This document shows, one piece after another, positions 19,360 through 48,430 of a DNA stretch of 64,000 nt (within the stretch, counting starts at the first letter, position 1; each line of letters starts with the position of its first letter). Below the pieces are notes generated by a model. That model saw nothing but the letters and a program-made list of their open reading frames with translations, was not told the origin of the DNA and did not search any database. Origin of the DNA: Candidatus Hydrogenedentota bacterium. GTDB taxonomy: Bacteria; Hydrogenedentota; Hydrogenedentia; Hydrogenedentales; JAGMZX01. The stretch spans positions 1-64,000 of the forward strand of contig JAKQEQ010000171.1 of the NCBI GenBank assembly GCA_029556545.1, written 5' to 3'. The position numbers and the translations under genes are program-made.

Positions 19360-21030
19360 ATGTTGACCGAAGAACGCCAAGGTGTCTACCAGACCCACGA
19401 AGTGAAGAACCAGCCGACGCCGCTGGAGAACTACAACTTGTATCTCGAAGACCAGCCGCTGCGGGAGGCGGTCGAGCGGCACCATGCCTCCTGGATGGAG
19501 GACCGGCTGCGGGCGTTCGGCGAGCACATCGGTCGCGCCGAATTCCTCGAACTGGGCAACCTCGCGAACAAGTTCTCGCCCGTGCTCCAGACCCATGACC
19601 GCTTCGGGAACCGCCGGGACGAGGTCGAGTTTCACCCCGCGTATTACGAGTTGATGGGAACGGGCATCGCCGCCGAGATGCACGCGCTCCCGTGGAACCG
19701 GCCCGAGCGCGGCGCGCACGTCGCCCGCGCGGCGATCCATTACCTGCTGTCCCAGGTCGAGGCGGGCGTGGGCTGCCCGATCACGATGAGCTTCGCGTCC
19801 GTGCCCGCGCTGCGCATCCAGCTCGAGGTGGCCGACGAGTGGGTGCCTCGCGTGACTTCGACGAAGTACGACCGCCGCGTCATTCCCGCCGCCGAGAAGA
19901 CGGGCAGCATGATCGGCATGGCCATGACGGAGAAGCAGGGCGGCTCGGACGTGCGGGCGAACGACACGCGCGCGGTGCCCGTCGGCGCGGAAGGCCCCGG
20001 CCAGGAATACCTGCTCACCGGGCACAAGTGGTTCGTCTCGGGAATCATGGCCGACGCCTTTCTCGCCACCGCGCACACGGACAACGGCCTCACCTGCTTC
20101 TTTGTCCCGAAGTTCCTGCCGGACGGCACGAAGAACCGGTTCTTCATGCTGCGGCTCAAGGACAAGGTGGGCAATCGCTCGAACGCGACCGGCGAAGTCG
20201 AGTTGCTCGACACGTGGGCGCGCATGGTCGGCGAGGAGGGGCGCGGTGTGCCCACCATCATCGAGATGGTCAACCACACGCGGCTCGATTGCGCCATCGG
20301 CATGGCGTCCGTCATGCGCCAGGCGGTCTCCCAGGCCATGCACTACTGCGCCCATCGCGCCGCCTTCGGTAACACACTGATCGATCAGCCGCTCATGCAG
20401 AACGTGCTCGCGGATCTCGCCCTCGAGTCCGAGGCCGCCACGACGCTCATGATGCGCATGGCCCAGGCCTACGACGAGGTCCGCGAGGACCCGGAGGCGC
20501 GCCACTTCGCGCGCATGGTCACGGCGGTGGGCAAGTACTGGACCTGCAAGCGCGCGCCGCATTTCGTCTTCGAGTGCATGGAATGCCTCGGGGGCGGCGG
20601 CTACGTCGAGGAGTGCAATATGCCGCGCCTCTATCGCGAGGCGCCCGTCTGCGCTATCTGGGAAGGCTCGGGCAACGTCATCAGCCTCGACATGCTCCGC
20701 GCGCTGCATAAAGACCCGCAGACGCTGCCCGCGTTCCTCGCCGAACTCGACCATGCCCGCGGCGGCGACAAGCGGCTCGACGCGTTCCTGGATAAGCTGC
20801 CGGGCGAATTCGCCGGCCTCGACGGCATCGAGACCCGCGCGCGGCGCATTATGGAGAAGCTGGCCCTCGCGTTGCAGGCGACGCTCCTCATGCGCTTCGC
20901 GCCCGACTACGTGGCCGACGCCTTCATCGCGTCCCGTATCGCCGGGGATCACGGCCACGAATACGGGACGTTGCCGAAGAATACAGCGTTCCGCGACATT
21001 ATTGACCGCGTTCGACCGAAGACGGACTGA
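19360..21030 (+). CDS. aidB: AidB-like acyl-CoA dehydrogenase family flavoprotein
   Basis: 556 residues, close in length to E. coli AidB (541), which is induced by alkylating agents. Shared features run through the protein: an opening NQPTPLENYNLYLED, VEAGVGCPITMSFA, IGMAMTEKQGGSDVRAN (FAD-binding), TGHKWFVSG, LTCFFVPKFLPDG, LKDKVGNRSNATGEVE, LIDQPLMQNVLADLALE and REAPVCAIWEGSGNV. AidB binds FAD and DNA and is thought to protect promoters or destroy alkylating agents. ATG 19360 has GGGAG 8 nt upstream. A TATAAT at 19300-19305 is the likely -10, with no clear -35. It ends one base before the heptad repeats of the next element. Confidence 0.93.
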   Translation: MLTEERQGVYQTHEVKNQPTPLENYNLYLEDQPLREAVERHHASWMEDRLRAFGEHIGRAEFLELGNLANKFSPVLQTHDRFGNRRDEVEFHPAYYELMGTGIAAEMHALPWNRPERGAHVARAAIHYLLSQVEAGVGCPITMSFASVPALRIQLEVADEWVPRVTSTKYDRRVIPAAEKTGSMIGMAMTEKQGGSDVRANDTRAVPVGAEGPGQEYLLTGHKWFVSGIMADAFLATAHTDNGLTCFFVPKFLPDGTKNRFFMLRLKDKVGNRSNATGEVELLDTWARMVGEEGRGVPTIIEMVNHTRLDCAIGMASVMRQAVSQAMHYCAHRAAFGNTLIDQPLMQNVLADLALESEAATTLMMRMAQAYDEVREDPEARHFARMVTAVGKYWTCKRAPHFVFECMECLGGGGYVEECNMPRLYREAPVCAIWEGSGNVISLDMLRALHKDPQTLPAFLAELDHARGGDKRLDAFLDKLPGEFAGLDGIETRARRIMEKLALALQATLLMRFAPDYVADAFIASRIAGDHGHEYGTLPKNTAFRDIIDRVRPKTD

Positions 21031-21031
21031 A

Positions 21032-21080
21032 TGCGGAATGCGGAATGCGGAGTGCGGAGTGCGGAGTGCGGAGTGCGGAA
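21032..21080 (+). repeat. Left heptad array (7 x TGCGGAA/G)
   Basis: Seven perfect head-to-tail heptads, TGCGGAA or TGCGGAG, run from 21032 to 21080, beginning two bases after the aidB stop codon and ending 22 nt before the four-helix-bundle start. A degenerate array in opposite orientation lies on the other side of that gene. Confidence 0.9.
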
Positions 21081-21102
21081 TGGCAAGCTAGGGGAGGTCG
21101 GT

Positions 21103-21459
21103 ATGAGGGAAAAGGACGACCTCAAGAGACGGACGCGGGCGTTTGCGTTGCGAATCATCCGCTTGTGCGAGTCATTGCCGGCGGGTCGAACCGGCGAAGT
21201 GATTGGGAAACAGCTCTTGCGTTGTGGCACGTCGGTCGGCGCGAATTATCGCGCGGCATGCCGTGGCAGATCGATCGCCGAATTTATCGCCAAGCTCGGG
21301 ATCGTCGAGGAGGAATGCGATGAATCCATCTTCTGGATGGAAATACTGGCTGATTCCGGACTGATAAAGAAAGACCTTCTTGAACCTCTCATGCGGGAAG
21401 CCGACGAAATTCTCTCGATAACTGTCGCCTCGATCAAGACCGCGCGGAGGCGCTCCTGA
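21103..21459 (+). CDS. Four-helix-bundle protein (23S rRNA intervening-sequence / Avd-like family)
   Basis: 118 residues. The pattern AFALRIIRLCESLP, GKQLLRCGTSVGANYRAACR, FIAKLGIVEEECDESIFWME and ADEILSITVASIKTARR marks the four-helix-bundle family first seen in intervening sequences of 23S rRNA and related to the Avd accessory protein of diversity-generating retroelements. Members form basic pentamer-like barrels that bind nucleic acid; a cellular role for the free-standing genes is not known to me. The start ATG 21103 has GGGGAGG 5 nt upstream. The gene is framed by inverted heptad repeats (21032-21080 and 21464-21507), so gene and repeats look like one unit. No rRNA or reverse transcriptase is nearby. 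Confidence 0.9.
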   Translation: MREKDDLKRRTRAFALRIIRLCESLPAGRTGEVIGKQLLRCGTSVGANYRAACRGRSIAEFIAKLGIVEEECDESIFWMEILADSGLIKKDLLEPLMREADEILSITVASIKTARRRS

Positions 21460-21463
21460 TGGC

Positions 21464-21507
21464 CATTCCGTGTTCCGAAATCCGCATTCCGCACTTGACA
21501 TCCGCAG
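21464..21507 (-). repeat. Right heptad array, inverted relative to the left
   Basis: Degenerate units ATTCCGTG, TTCCGAA, ATCCGC, ATTCCGCA and a later ATCCGCA are the reverse complement of the left TGCGGA heptads. The inner ends of both arrays also match (GCGGAATGGC on the left, CGGAATGGCC inverted on the right), so the gene between them sits in a long imperfect inverted repeat. Confidence 0.75.
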
Positions 21508-42872: not shown

Positions 42873-42920
42873 GAGGGCAATTCACCACAGAGGCACGGAG
42901 GGCACAGAGGAAACACAGAG

Positions 42921-42980
42921 ATGAAGGAACGCGAACTAGACCAGTTGGCGCAGCGGAACGGAGACCCGCCATGCAAGTGA
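42921..42980 (+). CDS. 19-codon mini-ORF, internally deleted copy of the GxxExxY gene
   Basis: Encodes MKERELDQLAQRNGDPPCK: the first 12 residues and last 6 of the neighbouring full gene joined by one asparagine. It has the same leader with GAGGA 9 nt upstream, so it should be translated as well as the full gene. A nearly identical copy is at 43466-43525. Confidence 0.45.
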   Translation: MKERELDQLAQRNGDPPCK

Positions 42981-43023
42981 GGATTCACCACAGAGGCACG
43001 AAGGGCACAGAGGAAACACAGAG

Positions 43024-43422
43024 ATGAATGAACCCGAACTAAACCAGTTGGCGCAGCGGGTGATAGGCGCGGCGATCGAGGTCCACAGGGTGCTTGGGCC
43101 AGGCCTCTTGGAGCCCGTCTATGAGGATGCGCTCTGCCATGAACTCGCGTTGGCTGGCATAGGCCATGAACGTCAGGTTTCGATACCGGTGCGTTACAAG
43201 GGCATCGTGCTGAAGAACGCATTCCGCGTGGACGTCCTGGTGGAACGTCAGATCGTGCTCGAACTGAAATCGGTCGATGAGGTCCTGCCCATTCACAAGG
43301 CGCAGGTGCTCACGTACCTTCGAATGATGGACCTCTGGCTTGGATACGTGCTCAACTTCAACGAGGAAACCCTCGTCAAGGGGGTACGCCGCTTGGTGAG
43401 CGGAGACCCGCCGTGCGAGTGA
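43024..43422 (+). CDS. GxxExxY protein, PD-(D/E)xK nuclease-like
   Basis: 132 residues. The name-giving motif is GLLEPVY at 27-33. A PD-(D/E)xK-like site follows: D70 in FRVDVLVERQ, E80-x-K82 in VLELK, and Q94 in HKAQVLTYLRMM, the usual extra glutamine. So it is predicted to be a small nuclease or nuclease-derived protein; activity is not established for the family as far as I know. Relatives are very often found amid ACAGAG-type repeats. ATG 43024 has GAGGA 9 nt upstream, carried by the leader repeat. It is the only intact copy in the array inserted in the Bat locus. Confidence 0.88.
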   Translation: MNEPELNQLAQRVIGAAIEVHRVLGPGLLEPVYEDALCHELALAGIGHERQVSIPVRYKGIVLKNAFRVDVLVERQIVLELKSVDEVLPIHKAQVLTYLRMMDLWLGYVLNFNEETLVKGVRRLVSGDPPCE

Positions 43423-43465
43423 GGATTCACCACAGAGGCACGAAGGGCACAGAGGAAACACAGAG

Positions 43466-43525
43466 ATGAAGGAACGCGAACTAGACCAGTTGGCGCACCG
43501 GAACGGAGACCCGCCGTGCAAGTGA
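43466..43525 (+). CDS. 19-codon mini-ORF, second deleted copy
   Basis: Same structure as the mini-ORF at 42921-42980 with the same deletion junction (CGGAACGGAGACCC); it differs mainly by CAG to CAC at codon 11. Because both share one junction, they descend from one deletion event and were then copied to both sides of the intact gene. Confidence 0.45.
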   Translation: MKERELDQLAHRNGDPPCK

Positions 43526-43687
43526 GGACTCACCACAGAGGCACGAAGGGCACAGAGGAATCACAGAGATGAATGAACGCGAATTCGGACCGATGAGCAC
43601 AGACGCGGGAGCGACACGCTATGTGCGAGCCGCCTCCTCCGTGGCTCTCCGTGTTCTCTGTGTCTCTGTGGTAAGGATTAACCCGTC

Positions 43688-44578
43688 ATGCTGCCGTCGG
43701 AACTGATGCAACAGATACGCCGGATTCAAATCCGGACCAGTCGCATGGTGAACGACGTGCTGGCCGGCCAGTACGAGAGCGTGTTCAAGGGTCAGGGCAT
43801 GGAGTTCAAGGAAGTGCGCGAGTACGTGCCGGGCGACGACGTGCGCGCCATCGACTGGAACGTGACGGCGCGCACGGGTCACCCGCACGTCAAAGTGCTC
43901 GCGGAAGAGCGGGAAATGACGGTGATGCTGCTCGTGGACGCGAGCGGTTCGGGCCGTTTCGGCAGTTCGGCGCGCTTCAAGAACGAGGTCGCCGCGGAAC
44001 TGTGCGCCGTGCTCGCTTTTTCCGCTATTCATAATAACGACAAGGTCGGCCTGATCGTTTTCACGGACCGGATCGAGCTCTTCGTGCCGCCGAAGAAGGG
44101 GCGACAACACGTCCTGCGCGTGATTCGCGAAGTGCTCTTTTTCGAGCCGAAGGGCACGGGCACGAACATCCCTGAGGCGCTCCATTACCTGAATGGCGTT
44201 GTGAAACGGCGCGCCGTCGTGTTCCTGGTTTCCGACTTCATGGAGGAGAACTACGAGACGCCGCTACGCATCGCCAACAAGCGGCACGACGTAATCGCCG
44301 TGGCGATTACAGACCCGCGCGAAGAGGAATTGCCGAACGTGGGGCTTTTGTGTGTCCGCGACACGGAAACGGGACGCGAGACGCTGGTGGACACGAGCGA
44401 TCCGGAGGTGCGCCGGCAGTATGGGCTCGCGGCGCGTGGGCGCGCGGACCGCCGCAACAACATATTCCGGCGCACGGCGGTCGATGCCATGCACGTGCGT
44501 GTCGAGGAGGAGCGCTCCTATATCAACGAACTGCACCGTTTCTTCCGCATGCGCGAGCGGCGGAAGGCGACGGCGTGA
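43688..44578 (+). CDS. DUF58 VWA-like protein of the Bat locus
   Basis: 296 residues. The DUF58 signature is FKEVREYVPGDDVRAIDWN near 38-56, followed by a von Willebrand A-type fold with a MIDAS-like DASGS in LLVDASGSGRFG and VFLVSDFM. These proteins work with MoxR ATPases. The Shine-Dalgarno AAGGA 10 nt before ATG 43688 lies at the very edge of the inverted repeat that closes the array, so the insertion ends exactly at this gene's start signal. Confidence 0.94.
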   Translation: MLPSELMQQIRRIQIRTSRMVNDVLAGQYESVFKGQGMEFKEVREYVPGDDVRAIDWNVTARTGHPHVKVLAEEREMTVMLLVDASGSGRFGSSARFKNEVAAELCAVLAFSAIHNNDKVGLIVFTDRIELFVPPKKGRQHVLRVIREVLFFEPKGTGTNIPEALHYLNGVVKRRAVVFLVSDFMEENYETPLRIANKRHDVIAVAITDPREEELPNVGLLCVRDTETGRETLVDTSDPEVRRQYGLAARGRADRRNNIFRRTAVDAMHVRVEEERSYINELHRFFRMRERRKATA

Positions 44579-47661: not shown

Positions 47662-48430
47662 CTGGCGAAAGATGACTTCACCACAGAGGCACGGAGGACA
47701 CGGAGCGTGCACGGAGAAGAGCTTTCTGTGCCTCCGCGGTTTCATTTGCGTTCTTGCTCTTTCTGCTCTCCTTATCGGTTTCTTGCCCGGCGCTTTCGCG
47801 GAAAGTCTCCATGACCGCCTGGCGCACGCGGAACAACTCCGACAGGACGGGAAATTCGACGAGGCGATGGGGGTCTATCGCGAGGTCCAGGTCGACGCGC
47901 CGGAACTCGAGTCGCTTCCGTACGCCCTGGCCTGCACCGCCTTCGGCAAGGCCGAAAGTCTGTTGTATGAGGCCCCCGATCAGGCCCTCGAAGCGTATCG
48001 AGCGGCGGCGACGGCGTTCCAGGCCGTCTTCGAGGCGCGCGACGACGCATTGCGGCGCGAGGCGCGCCTCGGGGCCGCCAACTGCGCGGCCCGCATCGCC
48101 GAAATCGAGGCGCGCCCCGAGGAATACCTCGAAACGCCGGACAAGAATGCCGTGCCGCCCGACGAGGTCAAGAAGCGCGTGAGCGTGCTGCGCCAGGCGT
48201 CGCTCGAATACGAGCAGTTCCTGCAACAATACCCCGATTCCGAGGCCGCGCGTCGGAACCTCGAACGGCTGCGCTACTACTGGAAGCGGATGGTCCAGGA
48301 AACGCCGCAACCCGTGCTGGTGCGCATCATCGGCGCGAGCACGGAGTACCCCGCCGCGGCGGCGCTGCCGTTGCCCGAGGAGGCCAGCGTCGTACTCGTC
48401 CCAAGAAGCACGCAAGGAACCGCGCCATGA
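47654..48430 (+). CDS. Exported TPR-like protein of the Bat locus (BatC-like)
   Basis: 258 residues if started at ATG 47654 (GGAG 10 nt upstream). The first about 28 residues (TSPQRHGGHGACTEKSFLCLRG) are translated from an ACAGAG-family repeat hairpin, then comes a good signal core FICVLALSALLIGFLPGAFA and the mature part with TPR-like helices (LAHAEQLRQDGKFDEAMGVYREV). So the repeat appears to have entered the 5' end of the gene, giving a basic extra stretch before the signal peptide. It overlaps the next gene by 4 nt. The original start may have been lost. Confidence 0.7.
   Translation: MRNWRKMTSPQRHGGHGACTEKSFLCLRGFICVLALSALLIGFLPGAFAESLHDRLAHAEQLRQDGKFDEAMGVYREVQVDAPELESLPYALACTAFGKAESLLYEAPDQALEAYRAAATAFQAVFEARDDALRREARLGAANCAARIAEIEARPEEYLETPDKNAVPPDEVKKRVSVLRQASLEYEQFLQQYPDSEAARRNLERLRYYWKRMVQETPQPVLVRIIGASTEYPAAAALPLPEEASVVLVPRSTQGTAP
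47677..47742. repeat. Hairpin copy of the ACAGAG repeat inside a coding region
   Basis: TTCACCACAGAGGCACGGAGG at 47677 matches the leader repeat of the 42.9 kb array, and TTTCTGTGCCTCCGCGG (47724-47740) is its inverted partner, so the pair can form a hairpin of about 15 bp. It lies in the N-terminal coding part of the TPR gene and keeps the frame open. Confidence 0.75.

Follow-up and report, generated by a model that had tools for sequence, protein, structure and literature searches.

Between the moxR and DUF58 genes of a Candidatus Hydrogenedentota bacterium, within the 64,000-nt stretch of DNA that was analysed (referred to as the window), a small gene of the GxxExxY family is found in an array together with drastically shortened copies of itself, raising the question of what kind of element gives rise to such an arrangement. 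As argued below, GxxExxY elements appear to form a little-known family of minimal selfish elements, and the window array is one of its members.

The array (42881–43673) comprises a full gene, two deleted copies and a stub, together with four left arms and an inverted right arm. On the forward strand, left arm 1 (42881–42920; units CACAGAG-G-CACGGAG-GG-CACAGAG-GAAA-CACAGAG) is followed by mini-ORF 1 (42921–42980), left arm 2 (42984–43023), the full GxxExxY gene encoding a predicted PD-(D/E)XK nuclease (TIGR04256/PF13366; 43024–43422, 132 codons), left arm 3 (43426–43465), mini-ORF 2 (43466–43525), left arm 4 (43529–43568), and a stub (43569–43638) in which the first ~5 codons of the gene run into unrelated sequence. 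A degenerate right arm of four units (43639–43673), inverted and on the reverse strand, closes the array, as the preliminary description of this locus had proposed. Its four 40-nt blocks were likewise confirmed when coordinates were checked directly in the sequence, each block lying immediately 5′ of an ATG (at 42921, 43024, 43466, and 43569). To be corrected in that description is the fourth unit, which is the stub; its ORF (43569–43706) continues across the right arm into the start of DUF58, so that its translation could be coupled to that of DUF58. A gene-less, degenerate solo element with the same arm type as the array is situated further downstream, at 47679–47743 on the forward strand.

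The start-to-start distances within the array are 103, 442, and 103 nt, and the mini-units are 339 nt (i.e., 113 codons) short of the full unit. Both mini-ORFs comprise 19 codons plus a stop, namely 12 from the beginning and 7 from the end of the nuclease gene, with no catalytic residue left, and their junctions are identical, in agreement with what had been described. Since the mini-units share not only this junction but also substitutions that do not occur in the full copy (AAGGAACGC.., AACGG.., and TGCAAGTGA), they stem from a single 339-nt in-frame deletion that was duplicated or copied by gene conversion, as suggested earlier.

The full gene is, by its profile matches, an unambiguous member of TIGR04256 (139.9 bits against a cut-off of 35, E-value of 4.5e-41) and PF13366 (PDDEXK_3; 137.7 bits against a cut-off of 22, E-value of 2.9e-40). 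G27, E30, Y33, D70, E80, and K82 are all present in the full-length protein, and an alignment of 15 sequences revealed G27, E30, Y33, D70, and K82 to be invariant, with position 80 being E or D in most relatives. An AlphaFold2 model of the 132-residue protein (pLDDT of 91.6) adopts the PD-(D/E)XK (restriction-endonuclease-like) fold. This model was compared by VIA-align and against a viral library; its closest structures were SSO0001 (Z of 9.4) and the REase-like 3ijm (Z of 8.5), with Cas4, Holliday-junction resolvases (HJC), and restriction enzymes ranking lower. Family profiles, alignment, and model thus bear out the earlier assignment as a PD-(D/E)xK nuclease, the activity itself being predicted. 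Judging from a median dN/dS of 0.08 over 30 pairs, the protein is under purifying selection. No sequence relative was found in the PDB, no match among the PADLOC models (i.e., to a known anti-phage defence system), and none in a phage search, while plasmids yielded eight relatives, each below 60% identity. Moreover, PF13366 is the sole protein family of the full element, which contains this one ORF and neither a known transposase nor an HUH Y1 transposase.

GxxExxY loci were sampled from 60 related genomes and supplemented with 22 loci from named genomes, 103 being usable, and the flanks of each locus were compared for their best inverted repeat, which was set against a threshold. Inverted arms exceeded this threshold around 78% of the 103 genes, which come from one order and several phyla, as compared to 3.9% when flanks were swapped between loci and none of 28 SmpB loci from the same genomes. 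By this comparison the gene and the arms are associated, and the blocks of the array therefore correspond to terminal inverted arms of an element, rather than to the 40-nt leaders with their own ribosome sites that had been described. The AGAGG located ~10 nt 5′ of each array ATG in fact falls inside the repeat units. Moreover, whereas the window arms abut their ATGs, arm-to-ATG distances elsewhere vary between a few nt and well above 100 nt, and it is this variation between loci that suggests any ribosome-site role of the arms to be incidental. A block of words 5′ of the gene with an inverted copy 3′ was seen in KSB1, Scalindua, Nitrospinia, Anaerolineae, Verrucomicrobia, and Prevotella, with differing words.

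Each arm is built from three, sometimes four, 7-nt units spaced 1–3 nt apart (the window arms having four), and the units take the form C-R-C-N-R-A-(G/T/A), i.e., CACAGAG, CGCAGAG, CGCAAAG, CACGAAG, CACGGAA, CRCGAAT, or CGCAGAT, with ACAGGAT as a further arm unit. The word differs between elements but agrees in the two arms of one element, the unit letters of which are 94% identical.

The word also follows the nuclease. In 95% of 104 cases, unit class agreed with that of the nearest protein in another genome, compared to 49% (maximum of 69%) after within-genome shuffling, although unit classes were set after seeing the data and the genomes are draft and related, which makes p-values here and below optimistic. 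When only non-orthologous nearest proteins from another genus were considered, the unit class was still the same in 89% (vs. 48% shuffled) below 70% identity and in 87% (vs. 47% shuffled) below 60% identity, the maxima over 5000 within-genome shuffles being 68% and 71%, respectively. Agreement in the finer CAC/CGC letters amounted to 86% and 66%, the latter inside the shuffled range, so this level of detail is conserved less deeply. Since flanking DNA would otherwise be randomised at such distances, the match implies constraint, and on this correlation nuclease lineages are each matched to their own word; co-inheritance of gene and arms would yield part of the correlation as well. A mutual-information scan that did not correct for phylogeny pointed to candidate word-reading residues, i.e., A10/Q11 with unit position 5, V62/N65/A66 with positions 2 and 4, and V118/V121 with position 7, although these couplings are a lead only.

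Arms also occur without a gene. Pattern and family searches of the window's own genome recovered its arm blocks elsewhere without a gene, and arms were found in relatives too. The absence of repeat and mini-units elsewhere, named beforehand as what would speak against the earlier interpretation, was not observed, given these arms and the deleted copies described below; in the own genome, 103-nt units are confined to the array. Among relatives, the four genomes that have a matching nuclease contained 24, 23, 17, and 8 CACGGAA(2,3) arms, and none of the remaining 56 exceeded 5 (MWU p-value of 1.8e-7; 0 in a reversed-pattern control). Similarly, CRCGAAT(3,3) arms numbered 187, 77, 59, 23, 18, and 10 in genomes with the gene, against a mean of 4.2 in those without (p-value of 9e-6), and a weaker trend in the same direction was seen for CACRGAG(2,2) hairpins (p-value of 0.004). 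These counts include the arms of gene-bearing elements. Several genomes had CACRGAG(2,2) hairpins with the gene undetected, and CRCGAAT hairpins were abundant without a detected matching gene in G003 (88) and G026 (48). As for the window type, CACAGAG(1,2), at least 16 of the 60 genomes were positive above trace level among the matches listed, and its arms flank or adjoin a gene in G000, G002, G027, G034, G038, G042, G049, and G055. Taken by word and spacing, gene-less hairpins are thus enriched in genomes with the matching gene type. The solos of G003 are 69-nt hairpins, or longer hairpins with unrelated interiors; solo hairpins begin with TTGAACC... or TTAGCC..., without a GTAG-type tetranucleotide. 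Direct repeats flanking 19 hairpins averaged 2.00 compared to 1.82 for shuffled flanks, and no target-site duplication was seen among them.

Three loci with unusual arms were noted along the way. In G014 (L328, G014:C23:60200-60700), about a dozen head-to-tail 9-nt units (GCACAGAGA) carry the word of the arms with no gene. The paralogous L011 and L012 (G000:C159 and G000:C170) share an identical single left arm, the right arm being absent, and this left arm adjoins sequence that looks protein-coding (ATCACCACAGAGGCACAAAGAACACAGAGGAATCACAGAGGATAC...).

Internally deleted derivatives with intact arms, which the preliminary description had led one to expect in relatives, were indeed recovered. 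G032 (L071) shows the order hairpin, internally deleted gene, hairpin, full gene, hairpin; G038 (L325) combines a broken gene with a second, truncated copy, both preceded by equal arms; G003 (L251, G003:C41) has a 326-nt element in which the gene's first and last codons are retained; and Scalindua rubra (L036) carries a copy that is internally deleted but retains both arms. In G042, two full copies, 98% identical, stand in tandem. Because deleted derivatives recur in other genomes, the mini-units of the window are one case of a general process, and the window array illustrates how the element makes gutted copies of itself. Alleles with and without the gene were found at orthologous sites. At one of these, G010 has arms and gene while G059 has the same arms without the gene (flanks being ~90% identical), and the missing gene lies between two CATGGACGG repeats. 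Between argF and argG, the gene is found in G055, a single arm in G049, a different hairpin in G047, and nothing in G010 and G059, and at a third orthologous site a hairpin of another word stands in place of the gene. These cases show both internally deleted derivatives and presence/absence at orthologous sites.

Nesting was observed as well: at L251 an unrelated repeat (GACGGTCATTCTGAGCGAAGCGAAGAATCTC and its inverse) sits inside the deleted GxxExxY element, and at the orthologous sites L295 and L292 hairpins of one word are nested within arms that belong to an element with a different word.

The reading that we favour, at a probability of roughly 60%, is that the array is a small REPtron-like selfish element with an unrelated nuclease acting on its own arms. 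The nuclease would bind heptamers of its word in both arms and nick or cut there, after which repair or strand transfer would duplicate arms and hairpins, convert gene-bearing elements to gene-less ones or the reverse, and build tandem arrays and deletions. Less easily reconciled with this reading are the many CRCGAAT hairpins of G003 and G026, the scarcity of recently moved gene copies, and the lack of target-site duplications among the hairpins examined. In the window, an arm-plus-gene unit may have been duplicated in tandem and one 339-nt in-frame deletion later copied, producing the order mini, full, mini, stub and leaving the array with a single surviving right arm. Since the mini-units kept their arms while their active site is gone, they could only be acted on in trans. 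With regard to the proposed autonomous gene with non-autonomous derivatives, the derivatives recur and alleles with and without the gene exist, whereas autonomy, i.e., the nuclease moving the arms, is what we infer. More tentatively, and at somewhat less than even odds, these elements might form a separate class of minimal mobile element, in which a single 120-residue PD-(D/E)XK protein would read a lineage-specific 7-nt word, present three times per arm, and with no partner other than host repair would multiply hairpins and deleted copies.

Alternatively, some other trans-acting enzyme might move the hairpins, with GxxExxY being a passenger or a hairpin resident, e.g., a homing-type nuclease that would cut gene-less hairpins and be copied in by repair. 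Arm design is indeed not GxxExxY-specific, since the TIGR02436 four-helix-bundle genes in relatives share the 7-nt-unit architecture (24 of 28, or 86%, with the inverted-arm layout and differing words), and a hairpin of a different type was found inside, or instead of, the gene at one orthologous site. Moreover, gene copies seldom look recently dispersed: a search within genomes for a recently transposed whole element returned only tandem copies, and where gene-bearing copies are dispersed within a genome, they have mostly diverged, suggesting that the gene itself rarely jumps. TnpA-REP genes are likewise said seldom to look freshly moved (PMC8266576). A passenger, however, should neither have its word track it across genera nor see hairpins concentrate in genomes with the matching nuclease, and we therefore regard another enzyme as an unlikely driver.

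A role at the RNA or regulatory level, with arms pairing in the transcript into a hairpin that encloses the gene (cf. the S23p intervening sequences of 23S rRNA, which RNase III excises) or controlling nuclease expression, is one to which we give rather little weight. The elements are indeed frequently situated within or between genes of operons (moxR-DUF58, argF-argG), their arms are able to pair via the units, and in Coxiella the 428-nt S23p intervening sequence carries terminal inverted repeats as well as heptamers upstream (PMC4990558). Against this, spacer length is equal in 94% of arm pairs (vs. 56% for other elements with the same unit), whereas spacer letters agree in only 56% between the arms of an element, with a background of 40%. 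Arm mismatches showed no excess of G-U wobble (44 G-U vs. 61 A-C, p-value of 0.12). Among 19 hairpins of G003 and G037, most of which are tight with 9-nt loops of unrelated sequence, unit positions were mostly matched at 0.9–1.0 (the fourth letter in two of the units reaching 0.63–0.68), as against 0.32–0.47 for the second spacer. Since word and spacing are kept and spacer letters hardly matched, the arms resemble spaced protein-binding words rather than a stem selected for pairing, and on the aligned letters it is word and spacing, rather than base pairing, that are conserved. Furthermore, gene-less hairpins number in the hundreds, and no Rfam match was found in the array.

The moxR-DUF58 site itself has a longer history. 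In the same genus, G001 has a PF13366 ORF at this site (42.5 bits) without catalytic residues; these residues are likewise gone from the ORF of G008 (70.7 bits) and lost from the marginal one of G007 (23.1 bits against the cut-off of 22). G046 has an intact gene with arms, G010 a PF13366 match below threshold, and G009, G004, G006, and G002 have 1–54 nt between moxR and DUF58. Because homologues, intact or decayed, occur in several relatives, this is an old site rather than a fresh insertion, and the comparison of empty and filled alleles proposed earlier does not date a recent jump here. The locus would hold either an ancestral element that is decaying or domesticated, or a repeatedly hit site. 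At L258, L260, L259, and L264, PF13366 ORFs have remained open with their catalytic residues lost, possibly representing a domesticated nuclease in the moxR operon.

Ordinary decay of an old GxxExxY gene in the moxR-x-DUF58 slot, by local tandem duplication and deletion and with a common REP-like repeat, would fit these homologues in the same slot (G001, G008, G046, and marginally G007, some having lost catalytic residues), as well as tandem duplications of elements elsewhere (L067, L071). Nevertheless, it leaves the arms at unrelated loci and in other phyla, and the match between word and nuclease, unexplained, and it is compatible with the selfish-element reading for the moxR-DUF58 site alone, so we hold it to be very improbable as a full account. 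Finally, an assembly artefact or chance repeat can practically be dismissed: although the window comes from a single contig of a draft genome, mis-assembly is made unlikely by SNPs that distinguish the copies and a longest exact repeat within the array of 54 nt, the 40-nt block pattern is matched 5 times in the window vs. 0 times expected by chance, and analogous arrays occur in other genomes (L071, L325).

Compared to known systems, the proposed selfish element resembles the REPtron/RAYT (TnpA-REP) system in having a mostly single-copy gene between inverted repeat arms, tandem clusters, and co-evolution of enzyme and repeat (PMC8266576, PMC3116915), and REPtrons and REPINs in the many gene-less hairpin doublets of matching type per genome, the abundance of which follows the gene. 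It differs in that the enzyme is a PD-(D/E)XK nuclease rather than an HUH tyrosine transposase, in that the arms are three spaced 7-nt words rather than a GTAG-tagged stem-loop, and in that GxxExxY genes can reach up to 10 per genome, each with its own word. Like MITEs and their parent IS, internally deleted or gene-less derivatives retain terminal inverted repeats, but GxxExxY elements are without a transposase gene and their arms are modular repeats of one word. The 23S rRNA intervening sequence (S23p, TIGR02436) similarly measures ~430 nt, encodes one small ORF, is bounded by terminal inverted repeats, has short words in tandem ahead of the ATG (GACAGAT in Coxiella), and occurs in derivatives with a deleted ORF (PMC4990558). 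GxxExxY elements, in contrast, encode another protein fold, reside outside rRNA (here as a PF13366 ORF between moxR and DUF58), have a unit period of ~9 rather than 7, and leave many gene-less copies.

A literature search returned no account of arms around GxxExxY genes, which is weak evidence given that most subscription journals were outside its scope. To our knowledge, GxxExxY is a widespread family described only as a predicted nuclease, without an assigned role, and we know of no explanation for 'CCACAGAGGCACAGAG'-type intergenic repeats; joining the two gives each a testable function. If the nuclease does read its word, hundreds of natural protein/word pairs would offer an evolvable DNA-recognition code, and bacterial genomes would have a second, non-HUH route to REP-like hairpins. 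If this holds, the TIGR02436 four-helix-bundle elements with their 7-nt words would be a parallel class. The window itself contains a TIGR02436 gene at 21029–21496 (ORF 21031–21459), with about eight tandem 7-nt units (GAATGCG/GAGTGCG) on its 5′ side and an inverted copy on its 3′ side.
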